From Campylobacterales bacterium (GTDB lineage Bacteria > Campylobacterota > Campylobacteria > Campylobacterales > Sulfurimonadaceae): a stretch of 35,050 nucleotides of DNA. The position numbers and the translations under genes are program-made. Location: assembly GCA_026390115.1 (NCBI GenBank), contig JAPLGO010000033.1, forward strand, positions 1-35,050. Direction: 5' to 3'. Under the pieces are notes generated by a model, which saw only the letters and a list, made by a program, of their open reading frames with translations, was not told the origin of the DNA and made no database searches. Of this stretch, positions 6,858 to 20,877 are shown in pieces; position 1 is the stretch's first letter, and each line of letters begins with the position of its first letter.

Positions 6858-8222
6858 TTGTTAGAAAAAGAGTCGGAGTTACACAAAAAATTTTGGGAAA
6901 TTTTTTCCAAACAAGACAGACAAAAGATAGACGAGTTTCAGACTTACATGGATAAGTTTGCAGTAAATTTTAACCTTTATAAAGATGGCAATTTTATAGA
7001 GCGTTCCCTTCCGTTTGATGTTATTCCACGCATCATCTCAAAACAAGAATTTAATAAAATAGAAAAAGGGTTGCAGCAGAGGGTCACTGCGCTCAATATG
7101 TTTTTAGAGGACCTCTACACAGATGCTAAAATTGTAAAAGCCGGGATTGTTCCAGAGGAGTTTGTCCATCAAGCAAAAGGGTATCTCAAAGAGTTTGTAG
7201 GTTTTTCTCCATCTCAAAAAATCAGAACACACATAAATGGAATCGACCTTGTTAAAGATACCGTAAATGACGAATGGGTTATTTTAGAAGATAATCTGAG
7301 AGTTCCAAGCGGCTCAAGTTATCCGCTCTCAATCCGTGATACCTACAGAAAAATATATCCTGACTTTTTTGAGAACCTGAAAATTGCACCGATTAAAGAG
7401 TATCCAAGTTATATCGAAGAGGCAATGAACTATGTGAATTGTGGCGGTATCAATGTGGTACTTACTCCGGGAAGATTTAATGCAGCTTACTATGAACACA
7501 GCTATTTGGCGGAAAAAGTGGGCGCGCAGCTTGTCCGTTCTCATGAGTTGACAGTTGTGGATAAGAAGCTCTACTTTAAAAATTATAACGGCAAATTGGT
7601 TCGTGTGGGTGCGGTTTACAGAAGATTGGATGATGAGTTTATCGACCCTGCATTTTTTAATCCTGAGAGCCTTATCGGTGTTCCGGGCTTGGTCGAAGCA
7701 TATCTGGCAGGGAATGTTGCACTCATGAATGCTATCGGTAACGGCGTGGCGGATGACAAAGGAATTTACTACTTTGTTCCTAAAATGATTCAATACTATC
7801 TGGGCGAAGAGCCGATACTCAAAAATGCTCCGACTTATTTGCCATATTTTGAAGAGGATATGAAATATATTTCTGACAATATAGAAAAACTCGTAATTAA
7901 AGATGTGGCAGAGGCGGGCGGTTATGGAGTGCTTTTCGGACACACGATGACGGCTCTGCAGCTTGAAGATTTAAAAGCGATTATCAAAGCAAATCCAAGA
8001 AGATTTATAGCCCAAGAACTTATAGAGTTTTACGATGAGCAGTGCTACCTCAATAAAGAGTTGCATAACAGAAAAGCGGATTTTAGAGCCTATGTGGTAA
8101 TGGGCAAAGATGTAAAAGTTTGGCAGTGTGGCTTAACAAGATATGCATTAGAAGCCGGAAATTATCTTGTAAACTCATCACAGGGTGGCGGTTTTAAAGA
8201 TACATGGGTAATGGAGTTATAA
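6858..8222 (+). CDS. Circularly permuted ATP-grasp protein (COG2308), stand-alone form
   Basis: The 454-residue protein belongs to the circularly permuted ATP-grasp family, predicted amide- or peptide-bond-forming ligases of unknown substrate. Landmarks are LEDNLRVPSG (143-152), VLTPGRFNAAYYEHSYL (201-217 and onward, with E223-H224), the R255-R-L-D-D259 motif, and a glycine loop KDVAEAGGYG (348-357) suited to ATP binding. The start is TTG at 6858, with a G-rich ribosome site at 6846-6851. The next in-frame ATG (residue 31) would cut into a conserved N-terminal region, so TTG is preferred. It is the first gene of a tight operon: the alpha-E gene starts one base after its stop. A paralogue fused to alpha-E lies at 15010-17505. 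Confidence 0.9.
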   Translation: MLEKESELHKKFWEIFSKQDRQKIDEFQTYMDKFAVNFNLYKDGNFIERSLPFDVIPRIISKQEFNKIEKGLQQRVTALNMFLEDLYTDAKIVKAGIVPEEFVHQAKGYLKEFVGFSPSQKIRTHINGIDLVKDTVNDEWVILEDNLRVPSGSSYPLSIRDTYRKIYPDFFENLKIAPIKEYPSYIEEAMNYVNCGGINVVLTPGRFNAAYYEHSYLAEKVGAQLVRSHELTVVDKKLYFKNYNGKLVRVGAVYRRLDDEFIDPAFFNPESLIGVPGLVEAYLAGNVALMNAIGNGVADDKGIYYFVPKMIQYYLGEEPILKNAPTYLPYFEEDMKYISDNIEKLVIKDVAEAGGYGVLFGHTMTALQLEDLKAIIKANPRRFIAQELIEFYDEQCYLNKELHNRKADFRAYVVMGKDVKVWQCGLTRYALEAGNYLVNSSQGGGFKDTWVMEL

Positions 8223-8223
8223 G

Positions 8224-8895
8224 ATGGGACAACTACTGACAGCAAATGTGGCTACGAACCTTTATTGGCTCGGAAGATATATAGAGAGGATTGAAGCAAC
8301 GTTGCTTCAGATTATCAGTGCGTATGATTGTATTATCGATGTTGACAAAGAGGCTGGAGTAAAACTTTATAAAAAAATCGGTGTAGATTTGGAGTATAAA
8401 AATGCTCAAGAGTTTTTGTCTCAATCTATCTTGGGCGCGCACTCTGCAAATCTGAGTGAGCTTATGAGTTATGCAAGAGAAAATACGATAATTAGCCGTA
8501 ACTACATAGATACGGAAGCTTTTGGAGAGATAATCGCCCTGCATGGGCTATTCCAAAGCATATCAAAAAGTCATATATCCATTGATTATAATTTTATAGA
8601 TAGTGCACAGTCTCTCATATGCGAAATCTGGGGTCAGCTCTCAAAAAGAGAACTTAGAAAAAATAGCGATTATTTTTTAAGACTCGGTAAGCTGGTAGAA
8701 GAGGCGGACTTCCATTTTAGGTTTGATAAAGATCAAGAGATAGCCATGGTTATCGTAGATGAGATTCATACAATTATTGATATTTTAACTACGGATAAAG
8801 AGAGTCAAGTCAGACAATCACAAAATCAGAGTAGTTCCAATGAAGATATTATGGATGCTATTCACAAAAAAATAGAGAGTATAATCGTATATTAA
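8224..8895 (+). CDS. Alpha-E domain protein (COG2307)
   Basis: The 223-residue, mainly helical protein has the family signature NLYWLGRYIERIEATLL near residues 12-28, with the conserved Glu-Arg pairs intact. Alpha-E proteins accompany permuted ATP-grasp and transglutaminase-like proteins. Comparative genomics proposes that they take part in forming or modifying a peptide, but no reaction is proven. At 223 residues it is shorter than many free-standing members (about 300), mostly at the C-terminal end, where the tail is polar and Ser/Gln-rich (residues about 198-210). It is separated by a single base from both neighbours, so co-translation with the ATP-grasp protein is likely. Confidence 0.87.
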   Translation: MGQLLTANVATNLYWLGRYIERIEATLLQIISAYDCIIDVDKEAGVKLYKKIGVDLEYKNAQEFLSQSILGAHSANLSELMSYARENTIISRNYIDTEAFGEIIALHGLFQSISKSHISIDYNFIDSAQSLICEIWGQLSKRELRKNSDYFLRLGKLVEEADFHFRFDKDQEIAMVIVDEIHTIIDILTTDKESQVRQSQNQSSSNEDIMDAIHKKIESIIVY

Positions 8896-8896
8896 C

Positions 8897-9847
8897 ATGC
8901 AGATAACAGAAATATTTTCCTCACAGCTACCGGTCGGCGAAACGCTCAGCATCAAGAGAAACAGGTATGAGCCGACACAAAAACAAGAGAACTTAAAAAG
9001 AATCAGTATAGTAAGCGGCACGCATGGAGACGAACTTGAAGGTCAATATGTAATCTACCTACTTTCATCATGGCTTAATAAAAATCAAAGTCATATCAAT
9101 GGAATTATAGACCTCTACCCTGCAGTGAATGCTTTGGGAATTGACTCTATAACAAGAGGATTTCCGCTTTATGAAGTAGATTTAAACAGAGCTTTTCCGG
9201 GCGGCAAAGAGGAGTATCTTCCGGGGCAGATTGTTTATGCTTTGGCGCAGGATGTAAAGGGGAGCGATATTGCGATAGATATTCACTCCTCCAATATTTT
9301 CTTGCGTGAAATCCCTCAGATACGAATCAATAAAGAGTTTTCAGCATTTACCCTTCCCCATGCCAAAGAGTTGAACTGTGATTTTATCTGGATTCATGAC
9401 GCGGTTACGGTGCTTGAAGCCACTTTTTCGCATACCCTCAATGAGATGGGGACAAAAACTCTGGTGGTCGAGATGGGCGTGGGAATGCGTCTGACAAAAG
9501 AGTATGGCGTGCAGCTTTTAAACGGGATTTTAAATCTTATGAAAAAAGAGGGCATCATAGTTACGGACGAAGAGTTTGAGGCAAGAGAGCCGTTTTTGTC
9601 GGAAGTCGGCGAGGTTTTTTATCTCAACGCACCGACAAGCGGGCTTTTTGTACCGGAACTGAGTCACTGTGCAATTATAAGCAAAGATGAGAAGATAGGA
9701 ACTATCGTCAACCCGCTAGACGGTGCAATTTTAGAGACTATCTATGCACCGAGCGGTGGAATTTTGTTTACACTCAGAGAGTATCCGATTGTATATGAGG
9801 GTTCACTTTTAGTGAGAATATTTGGAAATAATGATGAAAAAAATTGA
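8897..9847 (+). CDS. M14-family zinc hydrolase, succinylglutamate desuccinylase/aspartoacylase-like
   Basis: The 316-residue protein shows the full zinc site of the AstE/AspA branch of M14 carboxypeptidase-fold enzymes: H43-G-D-E46 (GTHGDE), H130 in IDIHSS, the substrate-binding DLNRAFPG (105-112), and a catalytic Glu at 192 (VVEMG). The enzyme should therefore hydrolyse an amide bond of a small acyl-amino acid or peptide. Within this operon its likely target is the product of the ATP-grasp/alpha-E proteins, which is inference. A beta-rich C-terminal domain (from about 225) is also typical of the family. The gene starts one base after the alpha-E stop and overlaps the next gene by 14-17 bases. 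Confidence 0.87.
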   Translation: MQITEIFSSQLPVGETLSIKRNRYEPTQKQENLKRISIVSGTHGDELEGQYVIYLLSSWLNKNQSHINGIIDLYPAVNALGIDSITRGFPLYEVDLNRAFPGGKEEYLPGQIVYALAQDVKGSDIAIDIHSSNIFLREIPQIRINKEFSAFTLPHAKELNCDFIWIHDAVTVLEATFSHTLNEMGTKTLVVEMGVGMRLTKEYGVQLLNGILNLMKKEGIIVTDEEFEAREPFLSEVGEVFYLNAPTSGLFVPELSHCAIISKDEKIGTIVNPLDGAILETIYAPSGGILFTLREYPIVYEGSLLVRIFGNNDEKN

Positions 9848-10769
9848 AATACTAAGAATTAACTCACTCAATCGTGCACCTCTCATCGTTGAGGGGTACC
9901 TCTTTGAAGGAAGCAACCCTGATGCACCAACCGTTGCAGTTGTAGGAGCGATGGAGGGCAAAACAATTTTGCCTCTTTACACAGCTTCAAAGTTGGTTGA
10001 CTTTTTGAAAAACAGTATGAGTGACTCTCAAAACATTCTTGGAAATATTCTGGTCATTCCCTCCATCAATCATTATGCCCTCAACATAAATGAGCGATTC
10101 TGGCCGCTTGACAAAACAAATCTCAACACCATGTTCCCCGGATATGCAGAGGGTGAAACTACGCAAAGAATAGCAAAGAGATTGTTTGATGCAATCAGCG
10201 GCTACACCCATGGAATTATTTTGGAGAATAGAGAAGATCTCTCTACATGTTTTCCTTATGTAAGGCTCTTTCAATCGGGGTATGAAGATATAGAAAATAG
10301 CAAAAAATTCGGTTATAAAATCGTACACCACAAAGAGTTGCGACCAACAGATACCGTGTCGCTGCAATACAATTGGCAACTTTGGGGAACAAAGGCGTAC
10401 TCGATTATGTGTCCGAATGAGACGCAGATTGATATGAACGGCTCCCATGAAGTTTTAGAGGGGATTATCAGTTTTTTAAGCAAAAACAAGATTATAAAAT
10501 ACAAAGTTCTTAACGGATATGAATCAACAGTTATCACAAAAGAGGACATCGAGATTGTGAAAACTCCAAAGAGCGGTATTTTTATCCCGACAAAGCAGAT
10601 TGGTTCCCATGTCATAAAAGATGAGACAATCGGCAAGATTATTCATGCCATTGAGGGTGAAGTTATCCATAAGATTGTAGCGCCAAGTAACGGCGTTATA
10701 GCATGTCACTACAAAAACGGACTTATCTTTGAAAATGCAGTCTCGTTTAGAATTATCAAGAGTGGGTAA
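9831..10769 (+). CDS. M14-like (AstE/AspA fold) protein without zinc ligands, probable pseudoenzyme
   Basis: The protein is about 312 residues and aligns by eye along its whole length with the upstream M14 enzyme: same length, the NxxFPG region, and a C-terminal domain with the matching phrases SGIFIPTKQIGSHVIKDE and APSNGVI. All active residues have changed: zinc His to M41, zinc Glu to K44 (GAMEGKT instead of GTHGDE), second His to N123 (LENRED), catalytic Glu to M183 and substrate Arg to T. It is thus probably not a hydrolase but a binding or regulatory partner of its neighbour, or an enzyme with other chemistry. Starts possible are ATG 9831 or 9834 (TTG 9822 is less likely). It is the last gene of this operon. 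Confidence 0.82.
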   Translation: MMKKIEILRINSLNRAPLIVEGYLFEGSNPDAPTVAVVGAMEGKTILPLYTASKLVDFLKNSMSDSQNILGNILVIPSINHYALNINERFWPLDKTNLNTMFPGYAEGETTQRIAKRLFDAISGYTHGIILENREDLSTCFPYVRLFQSGYEDIENSKKFGYKIVHHKELRPTDTVSLQYNWQLWGTKAYSIMCPNETQIDMNGSHEVLEGIISFLSKNKIIKYKVLNGYESTVITKEDIEIVKTPKSGIFIPTKQIGSHVIKDETIGKIIHAIEGEVIHKIVAPSNGVIACHYKNGLIFENAVSFRIIKSG

Positions 10770-10780
10770 AATCCACTCTT
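10758..10780. terminator. Hairpin at the convergent junction of the M14-like gene and the transglutaminase remnant
   Basis: A perfect 8-bp inverted repeat (AAGAGTGG at 10758-10765, CCACTCTT at 10773-10780) with a seven-base loop contains the stop codon of the M14-like gene and reaches the stop codon of the minus-strand remnant. It has no long T-run, so its termination strength is uncertain. The full transglutaminase gene keeps only one arm of it (CACTCTT, 14034-14040), which makes this copy the likely ancestral junction. Confidence 0.5.
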
Positions 10781-10924
10781 ACCACTGCGTCTGAATCTGC
10801 ATCTGGCTTTGATTTTGGCTTTGTGTTTGCCCTTTTTGCATTTTCAAAGTTGCATTACTCTCCTCTCGTTTGACATCTACCATAACCGATAATATTTTGC
10901 AGGTAAGCCTATGGAGCGAAGTGC
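10774..10924 (-). pseudogene. Remnant of a transglutaminase-like gene (3' end with internal deletion)
   Basis: Bases 10774-10891 match 14034-14151, the 3' end of the intact minus-strand transglutaminase gene, with six differences by my count (about 95% identity). The match then jumps: 10892-10924 is identical to 14381-14413, so 229 bases in between are missing. On the minus strand the last 32 codons remain open and end in the same Gln/Ser-rich tail, with two amino-acid changes (Asn to Ser, Thr to Ala) and some silent ones. That pattern fits divergence while the copy was still functional. Nothing recognisable continues beyond 10924. It is a scar of a recombination or duplication event at the edge of the enolase block. 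Confidence 0.85.
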
Positions 10925-14033: not shown

Positions 14034-14151
14034 CACTCTTACCACTGCGTCTGAATCTGCATCTGGCTCTGATTTTGGCTTTGTGTTTGCCCTTTTTGCA
14101 TTTTCAAAGTTGTGTTATTCTCCTCTCGTTTCACATCCACCATAACCGATA
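14034..14151. repeat. Direct repeat, second copy (matches 10774-10891)
   Basis: This 118-base stretch is the 3' end of the intact transglutaminase gene and is repeated in the same orientation 3260 bases upstream, with six mismatches by eye. The two copies bracket the enolase-crcB-DUF190-phosphatase block, so they mark the edges of an insertion or a duplication-based rearrangement. Confidence 0.85.
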
Positions 14152-15007
14152 AATAGCTGCTTCCGCTGCTTTGTACCACCCCTTTGAGCGGTGCAATATC
14201 TGCGTAATCTCGTCCTTCGACTAAAAGTATATGCTGTCCACTTGGAATAATGTTGTTTGTCGGGTCAAACTCTGCCCATCCGGCATTAGGAATATAGACC
14301 GCAAACCACGCATGTGAGGCATCCACCCCAAAAAACTTCTCTTGTCCCTCGGGAGGAAGAGTTTCGATGTATCCGCTCATATATTTTGCAGGTAAGCCTA
14401 TGGAGCGAAGTGCGGAAATTGCAAATTGTGCAAAATCTTGGCATACCCCTTTCTTTGCTTTAAATATCTTCTCGACCGGTGTTGTCACATCGCTAAAGCC
14501 TGAGAGAAATTCAAAATCATGAAATATACGCCCCATAAACTCGTTTGTTGCCTCAAACATATCTCTCTCATTATGAAAAGATTCAAATGCATATTGCTGA
14601 ATTGCCTTAGAGCTTGTCGGAATAAGTTCTGACTCAAAAAGAAACTGTTTTGCATCTAAATCTTCAAGATTAAATTTCGATAATCTCCCTATGGCTTCGG
14701 CATAGCTGATCCCGCTGTTTTTAAGTCTGTGAATATTCGCTTGCAGTAGCTCAGGAAAAACCTCTACTCTTGATTTACCCGTAACGGCGAGTGATTGATG
14801 CGGTTCTCTGATGAGAAGATGCTTATTTGAGTTTCCAAACATGTCAATAAATACATGCGACTCATAGACGCTCGGTTCAATCTCCATAGAGAAATTTAGC
14901 AGTTTTTGATGCGGCAGCTCTTTTGGCTTGAGCCTTGTTATATTGTGGCTGAATGTTACCATGCTTTGGTAATTAAAAACTGTCCGGTGGTATATGTTAT
15001 AGATCAT
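14039..15007 (-). CDS. Transglutaminase-like cysteine protease-fold protein (COG1305)
   Basis: The 322-residue protein has a bacterial transglutaminase N-terminal beta domain (1-80) and the core with the catalytic triad C189 (GVCQDFAQF), H232 (SHAWFAVY) and D248 (EFDPTNN). Members of this branch are thought to act as peptidases or amide-transfer enzymes on the product of the neighbouring ATP-grasp/alpha-E proteins. The C-terminal tail is unusual, with alternating Gln and Ser (GQTQSQNQSQMQIQTQW), and it is kept in the degraded duplicate. It is the last gene of a minus-strand operon, two bases after the ATP-grasp::alpha-E fusion. An upstream-promoter signal of its own is not seen. Confidence 0.9.
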   Translation of the reverse strand: MIYNIYHRTVFNYQSMVTFSHNITRLKPKELPHQKLLNFSMEIEPSVYESHVFIDMFGNSNKHLLIREPHQSLAVTGKSRVEVFPELLQANIHRLKNSGISYAEAIGRLSKFNLEDLDAKQFLFESELIPTSSKAIQQYAFESFHNERDMFEATNEFMGRIFHDFEFLSGFSDVTTPVEKIFKAKKGVCQDFAQFAISALRSIGLPAKYMSGYIETLPPEGQEKFFGVDASHAWFAVYIPNAGWAEFDPTNNIIPSGQHILLVEGRDYADIAPLKGVVQSSGSSYLSVMVDVKREENNTTLKMQKGQTQSQNQSQMQIQTQW

Positions 15008-15009
15008 AG

Positions 15010-17505
15010 TTACTCATCATAATGCGAAAAATAGGTTTTTGAAAACTCATCAGAACATGCAATATACAACTCGGATAATTTCGATAAAGCAGTGTTAAAT
15101 TCAAAGTAAAGAGTCTCATTATCGTTTCTTTTCATCATCTCTTTTATATTCAGTGACTGAAGAAGTAGATTTGCCTCTGCCATCGGTTTTTCATAGGAAC
15201 TAAGAGAGTCTTTTGATTTTGGCAGCAGTTTTAGAGCCCGCATAAGCTCTTCCGTTCTATAGGCAAGTGATTTTGGAAACTGTCTGTTGAAAATCAGAAA
15301 TTCTATAACATTTTCAAGAAGCAGTGAGCTTTTATATTTAGCTCGGTAGGCGTTAAAACTCTCTACGGAGTTGAGTAAACCTTCCAAAATATCGTACTCA
15401 ACCGACTTCTCCACATGCCAGCACAAAATTGACCTCGCCTTAGAGATGAAGAGCAAAGCACTCTCGATGTTGTATCCAATGTCATACAGAATAAGCCCTT
15501 GCTCCTTGTATATACTCTCTTTTACAAGCCCTTTATAGGCAAGCATGTAGATAAGCATTCTCTCAAGTTCATTCGCCATGGAGATATTGGAGTGTGTTGT
15601 TTTTTTGGCAAATCCACTCCACTCCTTCTTCATCTTCTCATATACTTTTGTTGAATCTATTGCCAAAATATCTTTAAGATTTATATTTGTGTTGGAGAGC
15701 ATTGAAAAGGTAAAAGATAAACTTCCCTGTCTTGAACCATCTTTTACAACCGAAGATATCTCAATCATAGGAGTTCTCTCTAGCTTTTTTCTGTTTTCAT
15801 CGCTGAAAAAACCGGGGTAGGTCATAGTGAGGTGCGTCAGTGCTTTTTGTAAAATCTCTTGAGATTCCTTTGAAATCATTCCCTCATATCTGTAAAAATT
15901 GGTCATCTTTTTTACAATATGCAAAACAAACCGAGTCGTTGTGATGAGCCGTGAGAGATAACGACCCAGCCAGTACAGATTTTCCGCTTTGAGCGTGGAT
16001 AGATTATTTATAAGCGTGTCTGAATATTTTGCATTTTCAAACATATTGACAAAATTAATCTCTTTCTCTTCCTTGCCAAGTATCCATAAATCTTTACTTG
16101 TTCCGCCTTTTTGCGAGGAGACAAGGAGGGCATCTTTTATGGATGAAACCCTTACGAGTCCCCCGTTCATCACGGAATATTCATCATCCGATTTAAGAGA
16201 GAAGGTTCTAATTGTAGCACTTCTTGGCTCAATGGTATTATTTGCATAATAGGGCACAGTCGAGAAACTAATCTCCTCTTGGGCTACATACTGATTCGGG
16301 CTTTGAAGGAGGAGACTCTTGAGTTCTTCTCTCTCGGTTTCAGACATTTTTTTGCAAAAATAGACCTGAACACTCTCTGTTCTGTCAATTCTCTTAATAA
16401 TGAGTTTATCCAAATTTTCAAGAACAAACTCAAGCTCCTTCTCTTGCCCACACCACCATGTGGCAATTTGAGGGAGAATAAGCGTTTCATTGAGAAAATA
16501 TTGAGATGCCTTCTCCATGAAGGGATTGAGACCGATATTTTCTAAAATCGCACTCCCTACTGGATTTATCATGTTCAAATTATCTTGTCTCATGACATCT
16601 ACAAGACCGGCAACTCCAAGTTTGGAGCTGTTTTTTAACTCCAGAGGGTCGCAATATCTATCATCCACTCTTCGGATAAGCGTATCCACTCTTTTAAGAC
16701 CGCCAAGATTTTTGAGCCAAAGAGAGCCGTTCTTTGTGAGTAAATCTTCGCCTTGAACCAGCTCGATATTTAAAAAAGAACTCAAATAGGAGTGTTCAAA
16801 ATAGGTCTCATTATAGGGTCCGGGGGTAAGAAGTGCAGCAACAGAATCCTCGTTAAGTTTAAATTTTTTAAACATATTTTTAAACTCTTCAAGAAAAGAG
16901 AAGAGCTTTTTGGTCTCTATATTTGGGTACAACTCTTTTGCAATAACATTCATAGTGAGTCGATTTTCTATTGCGTACCCTAACCCTGAGGGTGCCTGAG
17001 TTCTGTCATTTATAACCCACATTTTTTCATCTGGACCGCGGGCGAGGTCGGTTGCATAAAAGTATAAATTAAAATTTTCTTTTAACCCGAAGTTATACAC
17101 CTCAGGAGAAAAACCTTTGTGGGAGAAGATAACTTCTGCGGGGATAATATTCTCTTTAATAAGTTTTTGCTCTGAGTACAAATCTTTTAAAATCAGATTC
17201 AAAAGTTTTGCTCTCTGCTGCAGCCCTTTTGTTATCTCACTCCATTCTAATTCTGAGATAACAAAAGGGATTGGGTCTAAGCTCCATGAGCGGTTCGTAT
17301 TTCCGTCTATGCTATTGTAAACATTGTAGGTAACGCCATTATCTTCAAGAAGCCAATCAATCTCCGACTGTCTCTCTTGCAAAGTTTCAAAGCCTACGGA
17401 TTTGAGGCTCTCTGCAACCTCTTTCCATGGCTCTTTTACCTTTTTTTCTCTATTAAACATCTCATCACATGATGATTTTAAAACATAACTATCAAAAATC
17501 GGCAT
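15010..17505 (-). CDS. Permuted ATP-grasp::alpha-E fusion protein (COG2308-COG2307)
   Basis: The 831-residue fusion carries an ATP-grasp region of about 1-490, with NDRTQAPSGLGYAIENR (166-182), LLTPGPYNETYFEHSYL (225-241) and RRVDD (278-282), followed by an alpha-E region from about 500 with ENLYWLGRYLSRL (508-520). It is the one-chain version of the split pair at 6858-8895. Two differences stand out. The segment after IIKR (371) has RTESVQ where the stand-alone protein has a glycine loop. The alpha-E signature has Ser in place of the first Glu of ERxE. The first may be a trait of this subfamily. The ATG follows the stop of the DUF2126 gene directly (TAGATG), so translation is coupled. Confidence 0.92.
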   Translation of the reverse strand: MPIFDSYVLKSSCDEMFNREKKVKEPWKEVAESLKSVGFETLQERQSEIDWLLEDNGVTYNVYNSIDGNTNRSWSLDPIPFVISELEWSEITKGLQQRAKLLNLILKDLYSEQKLIKENIIPAEVIFSHKGFSPEVYNFGLKENFNLYFYATDLARGPDEKMWVINDRTQAPSGLGYAIENRLTMNVIAKELYPNIETKKLFSFLEEFKNMFKKFKLNEDSVAALLTPGPYNETYFEHSYLSSFLNIELVQGEDLLTKNGSLWLKNLGGLKRVDTLIRRVDDRYCDPLELKNSSKLGVAGLVDVMRQDNLNMINPVGSAILENIGLNPFMEKASQYFLNETLILPQIATWWCGQEKELEFVLENLDKLIIKRIDRTESVQVYFCKKMSETEREELKSLLLQSPNQYVAQEEISFSTVPYYANNTIEPRSATIRTFSLKSDDEYSVMNGGLVRVSSIKDALLVSSQKGGTSKDLWILGKEEKEINFVNMFENAKYSDTLINNLSTLKAENLYWLGRYLSRLITTTRFVLHIVKKMTNFYRYEGMISKESQEILQKALTHLTMTYPGFFSDENRKKLERTPMIEISSVVKDGSRQGSLSFTFSMLSNTNINLKDILAIDSTKVYEKMKKEWSGFAKKTTHSNISMANELERMLIYMLAYKGLVKESIYKEQGLILYDIGYNIESALLFISKARSILCWHVEKSVEYDILEGLLNSVESFNAYRAKYKSSLLLENVIEFLIFNRQFPKSLAYRTEELMRALKLLPKSKDSLSSYEKPMAEANLLLQSLNIKEMMKRNDNETLYFEFNTALSKLSELYIACSDEFSKTYFSHYDE

Positions 17506-20500
17506 CTACTGTTTGGCCCACTTTCTTCTTAAATCTAGGGTGTTTGGATACTCCATGCTAGGCGTAATATTTTGGAAATAGAACACCTTTTTGCCCTCCG
17601 GTTTCTCTTTTGTAAGCACTGCTCTTGAAGCACCGTTTACATCGACTAAGCTCTGTTTTACAACCGCTGCAGAGATATATTCAAGTTCGCCCTGTGTATG
17701 ATTAAAGTCCCAAAATCTGCTGATTCTTCTTGACTCTGCTTCATAACTGTTGACCGGAAACGAATCATAAGTTCGCCCTCCTGGGTGGGATACAAAGTAG
17801 CTCATGCCGCCGATAGATCTCTGATTCCATTTATCGACCACATCAAATGTCAAAGGCGTATCCACCCCGATTGTAGGGTGAAGAGCAGACCATGGCTGCC
17901 ATGCTTTGTATTTCACACCTGCAACAAACTCTCCCTCAACTCCGGTAGGGCTGAGCGGAACAACAACGGAGTTACATGTGAGCACATAGCGCTCAGGTAC
18001 AAAGTTGGTGACTTTGACCTGCACGCGCTCCAGCGAAGAGTCAACATAGCGAGCAGTTCCCTGAGAACCGCTTTCTTCACCGAGCACATGCCAAGGCTCA
18101 ATTGCGGCACGAAGTTCAAGATGAAAGTTCTCAGCCGTAGCCATTCCATAAAGAGGAAATCTAAACTCAAAGAATGGGTCGAACCAATCCAGTTCAAAAG
18201 CATACCCCTCATTATTTAAAAACTCTACAATGTCCCTGATATCCTCTTTTACATAGTGCTCTAACAGAAATTTATCATGTAACTGAGTTCCCCAGCGAAC
18301 AAGTTTGTGTTTGTAAGGTTTTTTCCAAAAGAGCGACACAAGTGTTCTTACAAGCAGCATTTGCAAAAGTGCCATCTGCGAATGTGGCGGCATGTCAAAG
18401 GCACGAAGCTCTAAGATACCGAGTCTTCCTGTGCTGGAATCGGGCGAATAGAGTTTGTCGATACAGAACTCCGAACGGTGCGTGTTCCCCGTTATGTCGG
18501 TCAACATGTGGCGAAACAGCCTATCCGTAAGCCAGAAAGGAACCTCCTGGTCTTGAGGAATTTGCGAAAAAGCAATCTCTAACTCATAAAGATTTTCTAA
18601 TCTTCCCTCATCCACGCGAGGTGCTTGCGATGTCGGGCCGATAAAAGCACCGGAGAAGAGGTAAGAGAGACCTGGATGGTGCTGCCAAAATGTGAGAAGA
18701 CTGCGGAGAAGTTCAGGGCGTCTGAGAAGCGGACTGTCTGAGGGCTTCATAGCTCCGATAGTCACATGGTTTCCTCCGCCTGTTCCCGTATGTTTTCCGT
18801 CAAGCATAAACTTTTCTGTGCCTAGTCGTGACTGTCTTGCATCCTCATAGAGTGTAAAAAGGTTATCGCTTAAATCTTTCCATGAAGTTGCCGGCTGGAT
18901 ATTGACTTCAATAACGCCAGGATCAGGTGTAACTTTAATGGTTTCAAGTCTTAAGTCATGTGGCGGTTCATACCCCTCCAACACAATTTTTATATCCAGT
19001 TTTTTTGCAACCGCCTCAATAGAAACAGCGAGGTCTAAAAATGCCTCTGTATGATTGAGTGGTGGTAGAAAGATATAGAGTTTCCGGTCTCTAACTTCTA
19101 CATTCAAAGCAGTTCGTACAAAAATATCATCCTGAAGATCTGTTTGTCCTAATTTTTTCATCTCTTCATATCTTTTTTTGGCATTCTGTCTGAGTTTGCT
19201 GAACTTCGCAACCTCTGCAAATAAATCCGGATCAAAATGGAGCGGCAATTCCTCTTTAGGTTTTTGCGAGAGAGAATCCATAGGAAGTCTCAGCCCGATA
19301 GGAGAGTTTCCGGGTATTAAAAAGAGCTCTCCTCTTCTAAATTTCCATCCCGAGGTTACCCATTTTGTCTCTCCGAAATTGAGAGGAAGAACATAACCAA
19401 CCTCTTTGTTCAGTCCTTGACTGAGAACTTTTGCAATGTTTTGTCTCTCAAGCGAATCTTTCAAATCAGCCTTCATAGGGTCAATGTCAAAAGGGAGTTC
19501 CGCCTCTTTCATAATGTAATGAATCGGGTCTTCATACGCCTTGACAACATTTTTATCGCTTACACCCAAAGTGAGTGCAAGTTCCTTAATAAATGCATGG
19601 GCATCCTCGGTTGTGTAGGCATGTTTTTCATTCATGTCTGCAAAAAGCTCTGGGTTTTTCCAAATCTGTTTGCCGTCTTTTCTCCAGATAATAGAGGTCT
19701 GCCATCTTGGAATCGGCTCACCGGGATACCATTTTCCTTGGGCATAATGGAGCAGTCCCCCTTTTGTAAAAGAAGCTAAAAGTTTTCGTGAGAGTTTGTC
19801 TGCAAGCTCTCTTTTGTGTGCTCCGTCCGCATCTGTGTTCCACTGGGGCGATTCCATGTCATCAATAGAAACAAAAGTGGGTTCACCGCCCATAGAGAGT
19901 CTGACATCATTGGCTTCAAGCTCTTTATCAATCTCGAAACCTAGTTTATAAATGGCATTCCATTGGTCGTCTCTGTAGGGCTTGCTCACGCGGGGGGATT
20001 CAAAAATTCTGGTAACCGTGTTTGAATACTCAAACTCCGTTTCACATTTGTCGCTCATTCCCTCTATGGCATATGCGCTCTCAAAGGATGGGGTACATGC
20101 AAGCGGAATATGACCCTCACCGGCAAAAAGTCCACTTGTAGAATCAAGTCCTAGCCAGCCGGCACCGGGAATATAAACCTCTGTCCAAGCATGAAGGTCT
20201 GTAAAATCCGCCTCAGGACCGCTCGGTCCATCAAGCGATGCTACATCTGATTTTAGCTGTACCAAATAGCCTGAGACAAATCTTGCAGCAAGCCCCAAAT
20301 GGCGAAGCACTTGAACAAAAAGCCAAGCGTAATCTCTACAGCTTCCAAGCTTGTTTCCAAGCGTAATTTCACATGCTTGAACACCACTTTCCAATCTTAT
20401 TGTGTAGTTGAGATATTTATAAATTTCTGTATTTAAGTAAACTAAAAAATCGTTAATCGGTCTCTCTTTTAAATCAAGAGTTTTAATAAACTTTTGTAAT

Positions 20501-20877
20501 TTTTTGCCGTCTTCTGTAATTTCTAGGTAGGGAATAAGCTCTTTTTTTAGTTCATCTTTGTACTCAAACGGATAATTTGTTGCATAATCATCCACAAAAA
20601 AATCAAATGGATTTATTGTGATTAAATCGGCAATAATTTCTACATCAATCCCAAACTCTTTTACTTTTTCAGGAAACACAATTCTTGCAAGATAGTTTCC
20701 AAACGGGTCTTGTTGCCAATTTATAAAATGATTCTCAGGCGTGATTTTTAAAGAGTAGGATTCAATGGGTGTTCGGCTGTGCGGAGCTGGGCGAAGTCTG
20801 ATTATATGAGGAGAAAGAGATATATATTTGTCATATTTGTAATGTGTTTTATGTGAAAGAACAACTTTAAGTGCCAT
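17506..20877 (-). CDS. Transglutaminase-like protein with DUF2126 domain
   Basis: The 1123-residue protein has two parts. The first 290 residues are a transglutaminase-like domain with C180 (GSCRDYAWLF), H229 (LHAWTEVYIP) and D245 (LDSTSG). The rest is DUF2126 (COG4196), starting near 305 with LSMGGEPTFVSIDDMESPQWN and containing a conserved HTGTGGGNHVTIGA segment. DUF2126 has features of a glutamine-synthetase/ATP-dependent ligase fold in published comparisons, so it may itself make amide bonds; that is inference. It is the first gene of the minus-strand operon. Its ATG has AAGGGG upstream (in + coordinates 20884-20889). The region before it is shared with pyrF. Confidence 0.93.
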   Translation of the reverse strand: MALKVVLSHKTHYKYDKYISLSPHIIRLRPAPHSRTPIESYSLKITPENHFINWQQDPFGNYLARIVFPEKVKEFGIDVEIIADLITINPFDFFVDDYATNYPFEYKDELKKELIPYLEITEDGKKLQKFIKTLDLKERPINDFLVYLNTEIYKYLNYTIRLESGVQACEITLGNKLGSCRDYAWLFVQVLRHLGLAARFVSGYLVQLKSDVASLDGPSGPEADFTDLHAWTEVYIPGAGWLGLDSTSGLFAGEGHIPLACTPSFESAYAIEGMSDKCETEFEYSNTVTRIFESPRVSKPYRDDQWNAIYKLGFEIDKELEANDVRLSMGGEPTFVSIDDMESPQWNTDADGAHKRELADKLSRKLLASFTKGGLLHYAQGKWYPGEPIPRWQTSIIWRKDGKQIWKNPELFADMNEKHAYTTEDAHAFIKELALTLGVSDKNVVKAYEDPIHYIMKEAELPFDIDPMKADLKDSLERQNIAKVLSQGLNKEVGYVLPLNFGETKWVTSGWKFRRGELFLIPGNSPIGLRLPMDSLSQKPKEELPLHFDPDLFAEVAKFSKLRQNAKKRYEEMKKLGQTDLQDDIFVRTALNVEVRDRKLYIFLPPLNHTEAFLDLAVSIEAVAKKLDIKIVLEGYEPPHDLRLETIKVTPDPGVIEVNIQPATSWKDLSDNLFTLYEDARQSRLGTEKFMLDGKHTGTGGGNHVTIGAMKPSDSPLLRRPELLRSLLTFWQHHPGLSYLFSGAFIGPTSQAPRVDEGRLENLYELEIAFSQIPQDQEVPFWLTDRLFRHMLTDITGNTHRSEFCIDKLYSPDSSTGRLGILELRAFDMPPHSQMALLQMLLVRTLVSLFWKKPYKHKLVRWGTQLHDKFLLEHYVKEDIRDIVEFLNNEGYAFELDWFDPFFEFRFPLYGMATAENFHLELRAAIEPWHVLGEESGSQGTARYVDSSLERVQVKVTNFVPERYVLTCNSVVVPLSPTGVEGEFVAGVKYKAWQPWSALHPTIGVDTPLTFDVVDKWNQRSIGGMSYFVSHPGGRTYDSFPVNSYEAESRRISRFWDFNHTQGELEYISAAVVKQSLVDVNGASRAVLTKEKPEGKKVFYFQNITPSMEYPNTLDLRRKWAKQ

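Follow-up and report, generated by a model that had tools for sequence, protein, structure and literature searches.

A probable M14-fold pseudoenzyme conserved beside its intact AstE/AspA-type paralogue in ATP-grasp/Alpha-E operons

A protein encoded directly downstream of an intact M14 metallohydrolase in a Campylobacterales bacterium (Sulfurimonadaceae) is, with little doubt, a conserved pseudoenzyme. The window, that is, the whole stretch of 35,050 nucleotides that was analysed, comprises contig positions 1-35,050 of assembly GCA_026390115.1, and the two paralogues are called here A (P0001, with an intact zinc site) and B (P0002, without one). Because the same pairing of an intact with a dead protein recurs in a similar gene cluster of very different bacteria, it is very probable that B does something in its own right, most likely helping A. 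I consider it probable that the function of B is tied to that of A, and a direct A-B heteromer an even call. About the same weight can be placed on the fuller reading, which is the best explanation at hand: B would be an old, dead paralogue from the AstE/AspA branch, kept as a non-catalytic partner of A.

The genes of the locus lie on the plus strand in the order ATP-grasp, Alpha-E, A, B. The first encodes a circularly permuted ATP-grasp protein (6858..8222, from a TTG start; Pfam CP_ATPgrasp_2 and _1) and is adjacent to the gene for an Alpha-E protein (8224..8895; Pfam, matching positions 3-163 of a 294-position profile). A (8897..9847, 316 aa), an AstE/AspA-type M14 metallohydrolase, follows after 2 nt with no transglutaminase gene between, and overlaps the start of B (9831..10769), which has the same fold and 311 aa counted from the ATG at 9834, or 312 from the ATG at 9831. 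As a preliminary description of this DNA had it, the frame of B is intact, running open from the ATGATG at 9831/9834 to the stop at 10769. Misassembly of B is unlikely, given that a separate record (L032) has the gene at 98% identity.

In A, the motif H43-x-x-E46 (9023..9034) and H130 (9284-9286), which from the family I take to be the zinc ligands, and E192 (9470-9472), presumably the catalytic glutamate, are conserved in all 27 A orthologues of the order. This was read from an alignment of 57 rows (27 A, 27 B and three outgroup M14 proteins), in which B is numbered from the ATG at 9834. The same columns hold E41 and T44 (9954..9965), E131 (10224-10226) and M192 (10407-10409) in the window's B; among the 27 B rows H43, H130 and E192 occur in none, and E46 persists in two (L014 and L028). 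The preliminary description had paired the four residues of A with M41, K44, N123 and M183, of which the change of E192 to methionine is borne out, while the first three pairings fall one column off in this alignment and, with counting from 9831, N123 and M183 carry numbers that are wrong by ten. It had also held that every active residue was changed, which is true of the zinc ligands and the catalytic glutamate but not of the pocket. Of N97, R98 and R87, which I take to be substrate-binding residues by their role in AspA, B keeps the first (as N98) and the last (as R88), with T99 in place of R98.

The same picture is seen in a pooled set of 155 A and 157 B sequences, or 138 and 140 without duplicates (137 of these A being complete), which includes loci from the best 80 of at least 575 stretches found in named genomes. 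A look for orthologues with zinc residues found the triad in none of the 140 unique B, and H43, H130 and E192 are all missing from every one of them. Triad and glutamate are together intact in 131 of the 137 complete A. A zinc ligand is altered in the other six, all from a sample of the family of genome G261 (H43 to Tyr in four, H43 to Gln in one, E46 to Asp in one; loci L138, L142, L146, L150, L152 and L153), so that A as well as B may be altered at these loci.

A and B share 22% identity (E 6e-16). The Pfam family AstE_AspA_cat (PF24827, cut-off 25) matches B with 31.1 bits over residues 31-121 only and A with 63.9 bits, and no DNA-binding or other output domain is found by Pfam in the 311 aa of B. 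AlphaFold2 single-chain models have a mean pLDDT of 90.8 for B and 89.1 for A. The B model, also searched with Foldseek, resembles AstE/AspA enzymes along its length, with Z 27.7 to 3cdx and 6twm over 284-287 residues and 25.1 to CphZ, and has both the catalytic and the C-terminal domain fold of the family. With the AstE/AspA-type hydrolases as a group (EutE/DoeB 6twl and 6twm, 3cdx, CphZ 8ein and 8eip) B thus shares the full-length fold (Z 25-28), the catalytic domain, the C-terminal beta domain and the FPG loop motif, but it differs from them in lacking the zinc triad and catalytic glutamate, and its sequence is 11-18% identical to those of the nine top entries. The ligands HxxE...H and the catalytic glutamate that PF24827 enzymes require are absent, and judged from its sequence B is a relative of the AstE/AspA family and no functional member of it. 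An intact frame, lost catalytic residues and purifying selection, the marks by which a pseudoenzyme is recognised in sequence, are all present in B. The lowest model confidence in B falls on a highly conserved loop, residues 81-110 (window 10074-10163; block means 61-74), and residues 81-100 of A are likewise low (block means 59-70). A loop that is uncertain in the model yet conserved (about 81-100 in B) would suit ordering by a ligand or partner, which is a weak hint.

In 248 genomes drawn evenly from the order, a full B (at least 39% identity) was found in 27 and a full A (at least 55%) in the same 27; none of these B has an internal stop, and A and B share one locus in all 26 order loci fetched besides the window. 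Two of the 14 genomes listed for the window's genus have the pair. A full ATP-grasp orthologue is present in 28 order genomes, 26 with the pair and two (G070 and G127) without, and in G141 the pair lies on a 3-kb contig without the ATP-grasp gene. G070 and G127 have neither A nor B at the locus, keeping ATP-grasp, Alpha-E and a convergent cluster whose transglutaminase adjoins the Alpha-E end, so A and B are missing together; a further M14 gene, more distantly related, lies elsewhere in the genome of G070. Part of this joint gain and loss would follow from adjacency alone. Among plasmid records, P0003 has 116 matches and B six, which all fall below 32% identity and carry annotations as M14, AspA-type or DoeB proteins, and the ligase genes therefore occur also without the pair.

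A scan of named genomes gave at least 575 stretches encoding a relative; the best 80 of them, ranked by their similarity to B, were taken, so this is no random sample. Titles among these 80 include Lachnospiraceae, Ruminococcus, Bacteroidales, Prevotella, Spirochaetales and Desulfovibrionaceae, and A lies beside B in 78. I also sampled 200 genomes from the family of G261, the genome of locus L099 (Eubacterium sp. An11; presumably Lachnospiraceae). There were matches in 53, of which 51 have a B above 300 bits (as a count of rows), seven of them in two copies, and a weaker A match lies beside B in 49 of the 51. In G324 the start of B is damaged and no A was found, G387 has a truncated B, and G288 only a short fragment. 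Besides G324 and G387, B stands without A in L045 and L076, whose matches lie close to a sequence start, beginning 3 and 144 bases from it. Conservation in related operons, on which the preliminary description had made its reading depend, extends across several phyla.

Combining the best 80 of at least 575 named loci with 50 from the family sample gives 130 loci, of which two places were fetched twice and some (L099, L114) occur in both sets. A lies directly upstream of B in 128; the other two are B alone near sequence ends. Measured on the longest open frames, the gap between the genes has a median of -4 nt and is at most 20 nt in 111 of the 128. At all 128 paired loci the two are separate frames, and none encodes an A-B fusion.

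Selection on B is purifying: dN/dS is 0.021-0.063 in 15 close pairs (dS below 1.2; all from the Campylobacterota group and not independent, with saturated pairs left uninterpreted) and 0.017-0.055 for A in the same pairs. Between the window and L032 the value for B is 0.025. In a tree of 49 rows (short search, no bootstrap) A and B form clades with SH-aLRT support of 97 and 100, and each falls into two halves that match the same host groups, with support of 87 and 88 for the halves of A and 96 and 89 for those of B, which indicates that A and B diverged before the two host groups split. The suggestion that B retains a non-catalytic job is hence well supported, by the absence of the triad from all 140 B, by conservation of the gene in related operons and by dN/dS values well under 1 in all 15 close pairs.

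Of the ways in which B could help, direct binding to A is the one I hold likeliest. A would supply the metal site and B recognition or control; B would bind A as a heterodimer or a higher hetero-oligomer, and would shape or regulate the substrate site of A or itself bind the substrate or tag. There is precedent in Helicobacter pylori, where Csd1 and Csd2 (HP1543 and HP1544), an active and a metal-less M23 peptidase, form a 1:1 heterodimer according to an excerpt of PMC5053510. In both cases an intact and a metal-less paralogue are encoded side by side, whereas fold and peptidase family are different, and the complex is proven for Csd1-Csd2 and only proposed for A-B. Covariation shows coupling across the operon as a whole. 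The partial correlation of the A and B distance matrices, given ATP-grasp and Alpha-E, is 0.25 over 62 loci and is reached by none of 500 permutations, which is what shared ancestry alone would give. It is below the values for A with ATP-grasp (0.41), B with ATP-grasp (0.46) and ATP-grasp with Alpha-E (0.48) at the same 62 loci, and B therefore shows no special coupling to A.

Excerpts of PMC5666114 and PMC6376114 describe the Anbu operon as ATP-grasp, Alpha-E, transglutaminase and Anbu, proposed to be a protein-tagging or peptide-synthesis system, hypotheses that experiment had not confirmed as of 2017. The loci studied here share ATP-grasp and Alpha-E, often with a transglutaminase, ahead of the hydrolase genes, and differ in having the M14 pair in last place. 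The pair thus appears to hold Anbu's place in the operon, and the role would by extension be the same, with A filling the place of the Ntn protein and hydrolysing an amide or isopeptide product of the ATP-grasp/Alpha-E ligation pathway. The nearest folds to B include the deacetylase EutE and CphZ, and since CphZ is a cyanophycin dipeptide hydrolase, such hydrolysis is plausible for A. A possible, and more tentative, elaboration is that B and its relatives in several phyla form obligate hetero-oligomers with A, and that this hydrolase of two subunits takes over from Anbu the reversal or processing step of a widespread ATP-grasp/Alpha-E peptide-tagging pathway, B recognising the tag.

Of 71 testable loci, 41 have a gene with the transglutaminase motif in the interval from Alpha-E to A. 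Among the other 30, the transglutaminase of L083 missed the motif pattern by one letter, and L062 and L063 have a related gene without the Cys motif in that position. No such gene lies there in the window or in the 25 testable loci among L032-L059. Four Sulfurospirillum loci (L062, 4284-5054; L063, 4281-5054; L066, 4284-5054; and L067) have a transglutaminase without the active-site Cys, GLRND, GLSQD or GISQD replacing GVCQD, which is likely, from these motifs, to be a second pseudoenzyme in the operon. As for Anbu itself, which I take PF00227 to cover, 40 pair-bearing genomes gave one PF00227 match in 26, none in 14 and never more than one, and three pair-less genomes gave one each; every match is 172-175 residues, the size of HslV, with no class assigned beyond the family. 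Three annotated plasmid regions (two Sinorhizobium pSymB, one Tsukamurella) all list ATP-grasp and Alpha-E, and two also a transglutaminase; neither Anbu nor an M14 protein appears in the annotation, which does not cover every gene, and no clear candidate came from the frames of one gap in it.

A second, convergent cluster lies downstream on the minus strand of the window, encoding a transglutaminase-like protein (14039..15007), a CP_ATPgrasp and Alpha-E fusion (15010..17505) and a transglutaminase joined to a DUF2126 putative amidoligase (17506..20877). A second ATP-grasp relative, with a frame of about 820-850 aa, occurs in 21 of the 28 order genomes that bear the first. Directly after B lies a decayed transglutaminase remnant (10775-10923, minus strand), the intact copy being that at 14039-15007. 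In L032, a close relative, the transglutaminase lies immediately against B. About 3.1 kb separates B from it in the window, with transglutaminase sequence on both flanks, and this stretch holds enolase, CrcB, DUF190 and phosphatase-family genes, the first of which I take to be enolase by eye.

The residues that now fill the former active site bear on the alternatives. B rows were divided by locus number into a Campylobacterota group (the window and L003-L068, assigned by record title where one names the organism; L060, titled 'Proteobacteria bacterium', is the exception) and other lineages (L069-L161). In the first group the H43 column has no fixed residue (Glu in only 17 of 52), E46 varies as well, E131 replaces H130 in 51 of 52, and R133 and C139 are invariant in all 52. 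In the other lineages R41 replaces H43, Y192 replaces E192 and E46 is retained as E44, each in 88 of 88. Conservation of the replaced residues, raised as a question in the preliminary description, is therefore found at H130 in the Campylobacterota group but not at H43 or E46 there, and the other lineages differ. Because the replacing residues differ by lineage, there is no single conserved substitute site; on these alignments the dead state is common to every B examined and the filling of the old metal site depends on lineage. Thirty-three B columns carry the same residue, conserved to at least 90%, in the two host groups, ten of them also invariant in A and most others different from A, for example R14, N84, W90, D93, R112, Y179, N180, W181 and S190.

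It is conceivable, if unlikely, that B works alone as a ligand-binding regulator or sensor, its pocket kept for a substrate or product of the pathway and its action directed at something other than A. The B of other lineages would suit this, keeping N97 (88/88), R98 (87/88) and R87 (81/88) while the metal site is gone, but those of the Campylobacterota group have lost R98 in 52 of 52 and keep R87 in only 25, and the missing Pfam output domain and the near-constant pairing with A also argue against it. Rather improbable is a new metal-free enzyme, in which other polar residues, with a chemistry of their own, took the place of the old site. R133, C139 and E131 of the Campylobacterota group, at or near the former metal site, could be such a set, as could R41, E44 and Y192 elsewhere, and the shared columns include conserved polar residues (R14, N84, D93, R112, Y179, N180 and S190); the sets of the two lineages are, however, wholly different, as would be expected of structural replacement rather than of a single conserved chemistry.

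I give very little weight to the view that B still binds metal through unusual ligands and hydrolyses as Csd4 does, whose metal motif is Gln46, Glu49 and His128, Gln standing where the first His would be (excerpt of PMC4220969). The window's B does have E41 and E131, but Glu at position 41 is restricted to those 17 of 52, Arg stands there in all 88 others, and the catalytic glutamate is gone in 140 of 140. An alternative-ligand metal site common to the B family was rejected, there being no conserved residue set for it. A decaying duplicate without function is scarcely credible: the lost catalytic residues and the relics in G324, G387 and G288 might suggest one, but dN/dS in the close pairs, an A-B split older than the host groups and 27 of 27 order orthologues free of internal stops speak against it, and with this degree of conservation the pseudogene reading was rejected.

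Returning to B as a non-catalytic partner of A, the pairing of an intact with a dead protein is ordinary as a principle and is not described as a family in the literature searched. That search found no published description of the B family, a mention in Iyer et al. 2009 being possible. The M14 pseudopeptidases named in the excerpted review PMC11266112 (AEBP1, CPXM1, CPXM2, CPD domain III and Ecm14; animals and yeast) share the M14 fold and changed catalytic residues with B but are vertebrate, fly and yeast proteins of other M14 branches, and the excerpt names no bacterial or AspA-branch M14 pseudoenzyme. With B, the M14 pseudoenzymes, all from animals or yeast in that review as excerpted, would gain a deeply conserved family from bacteria. 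The pair, whose fold is well studied, would also offer an entry to a tagging or peptide pathway whose hydrolase step is a near-constant M14 pair.
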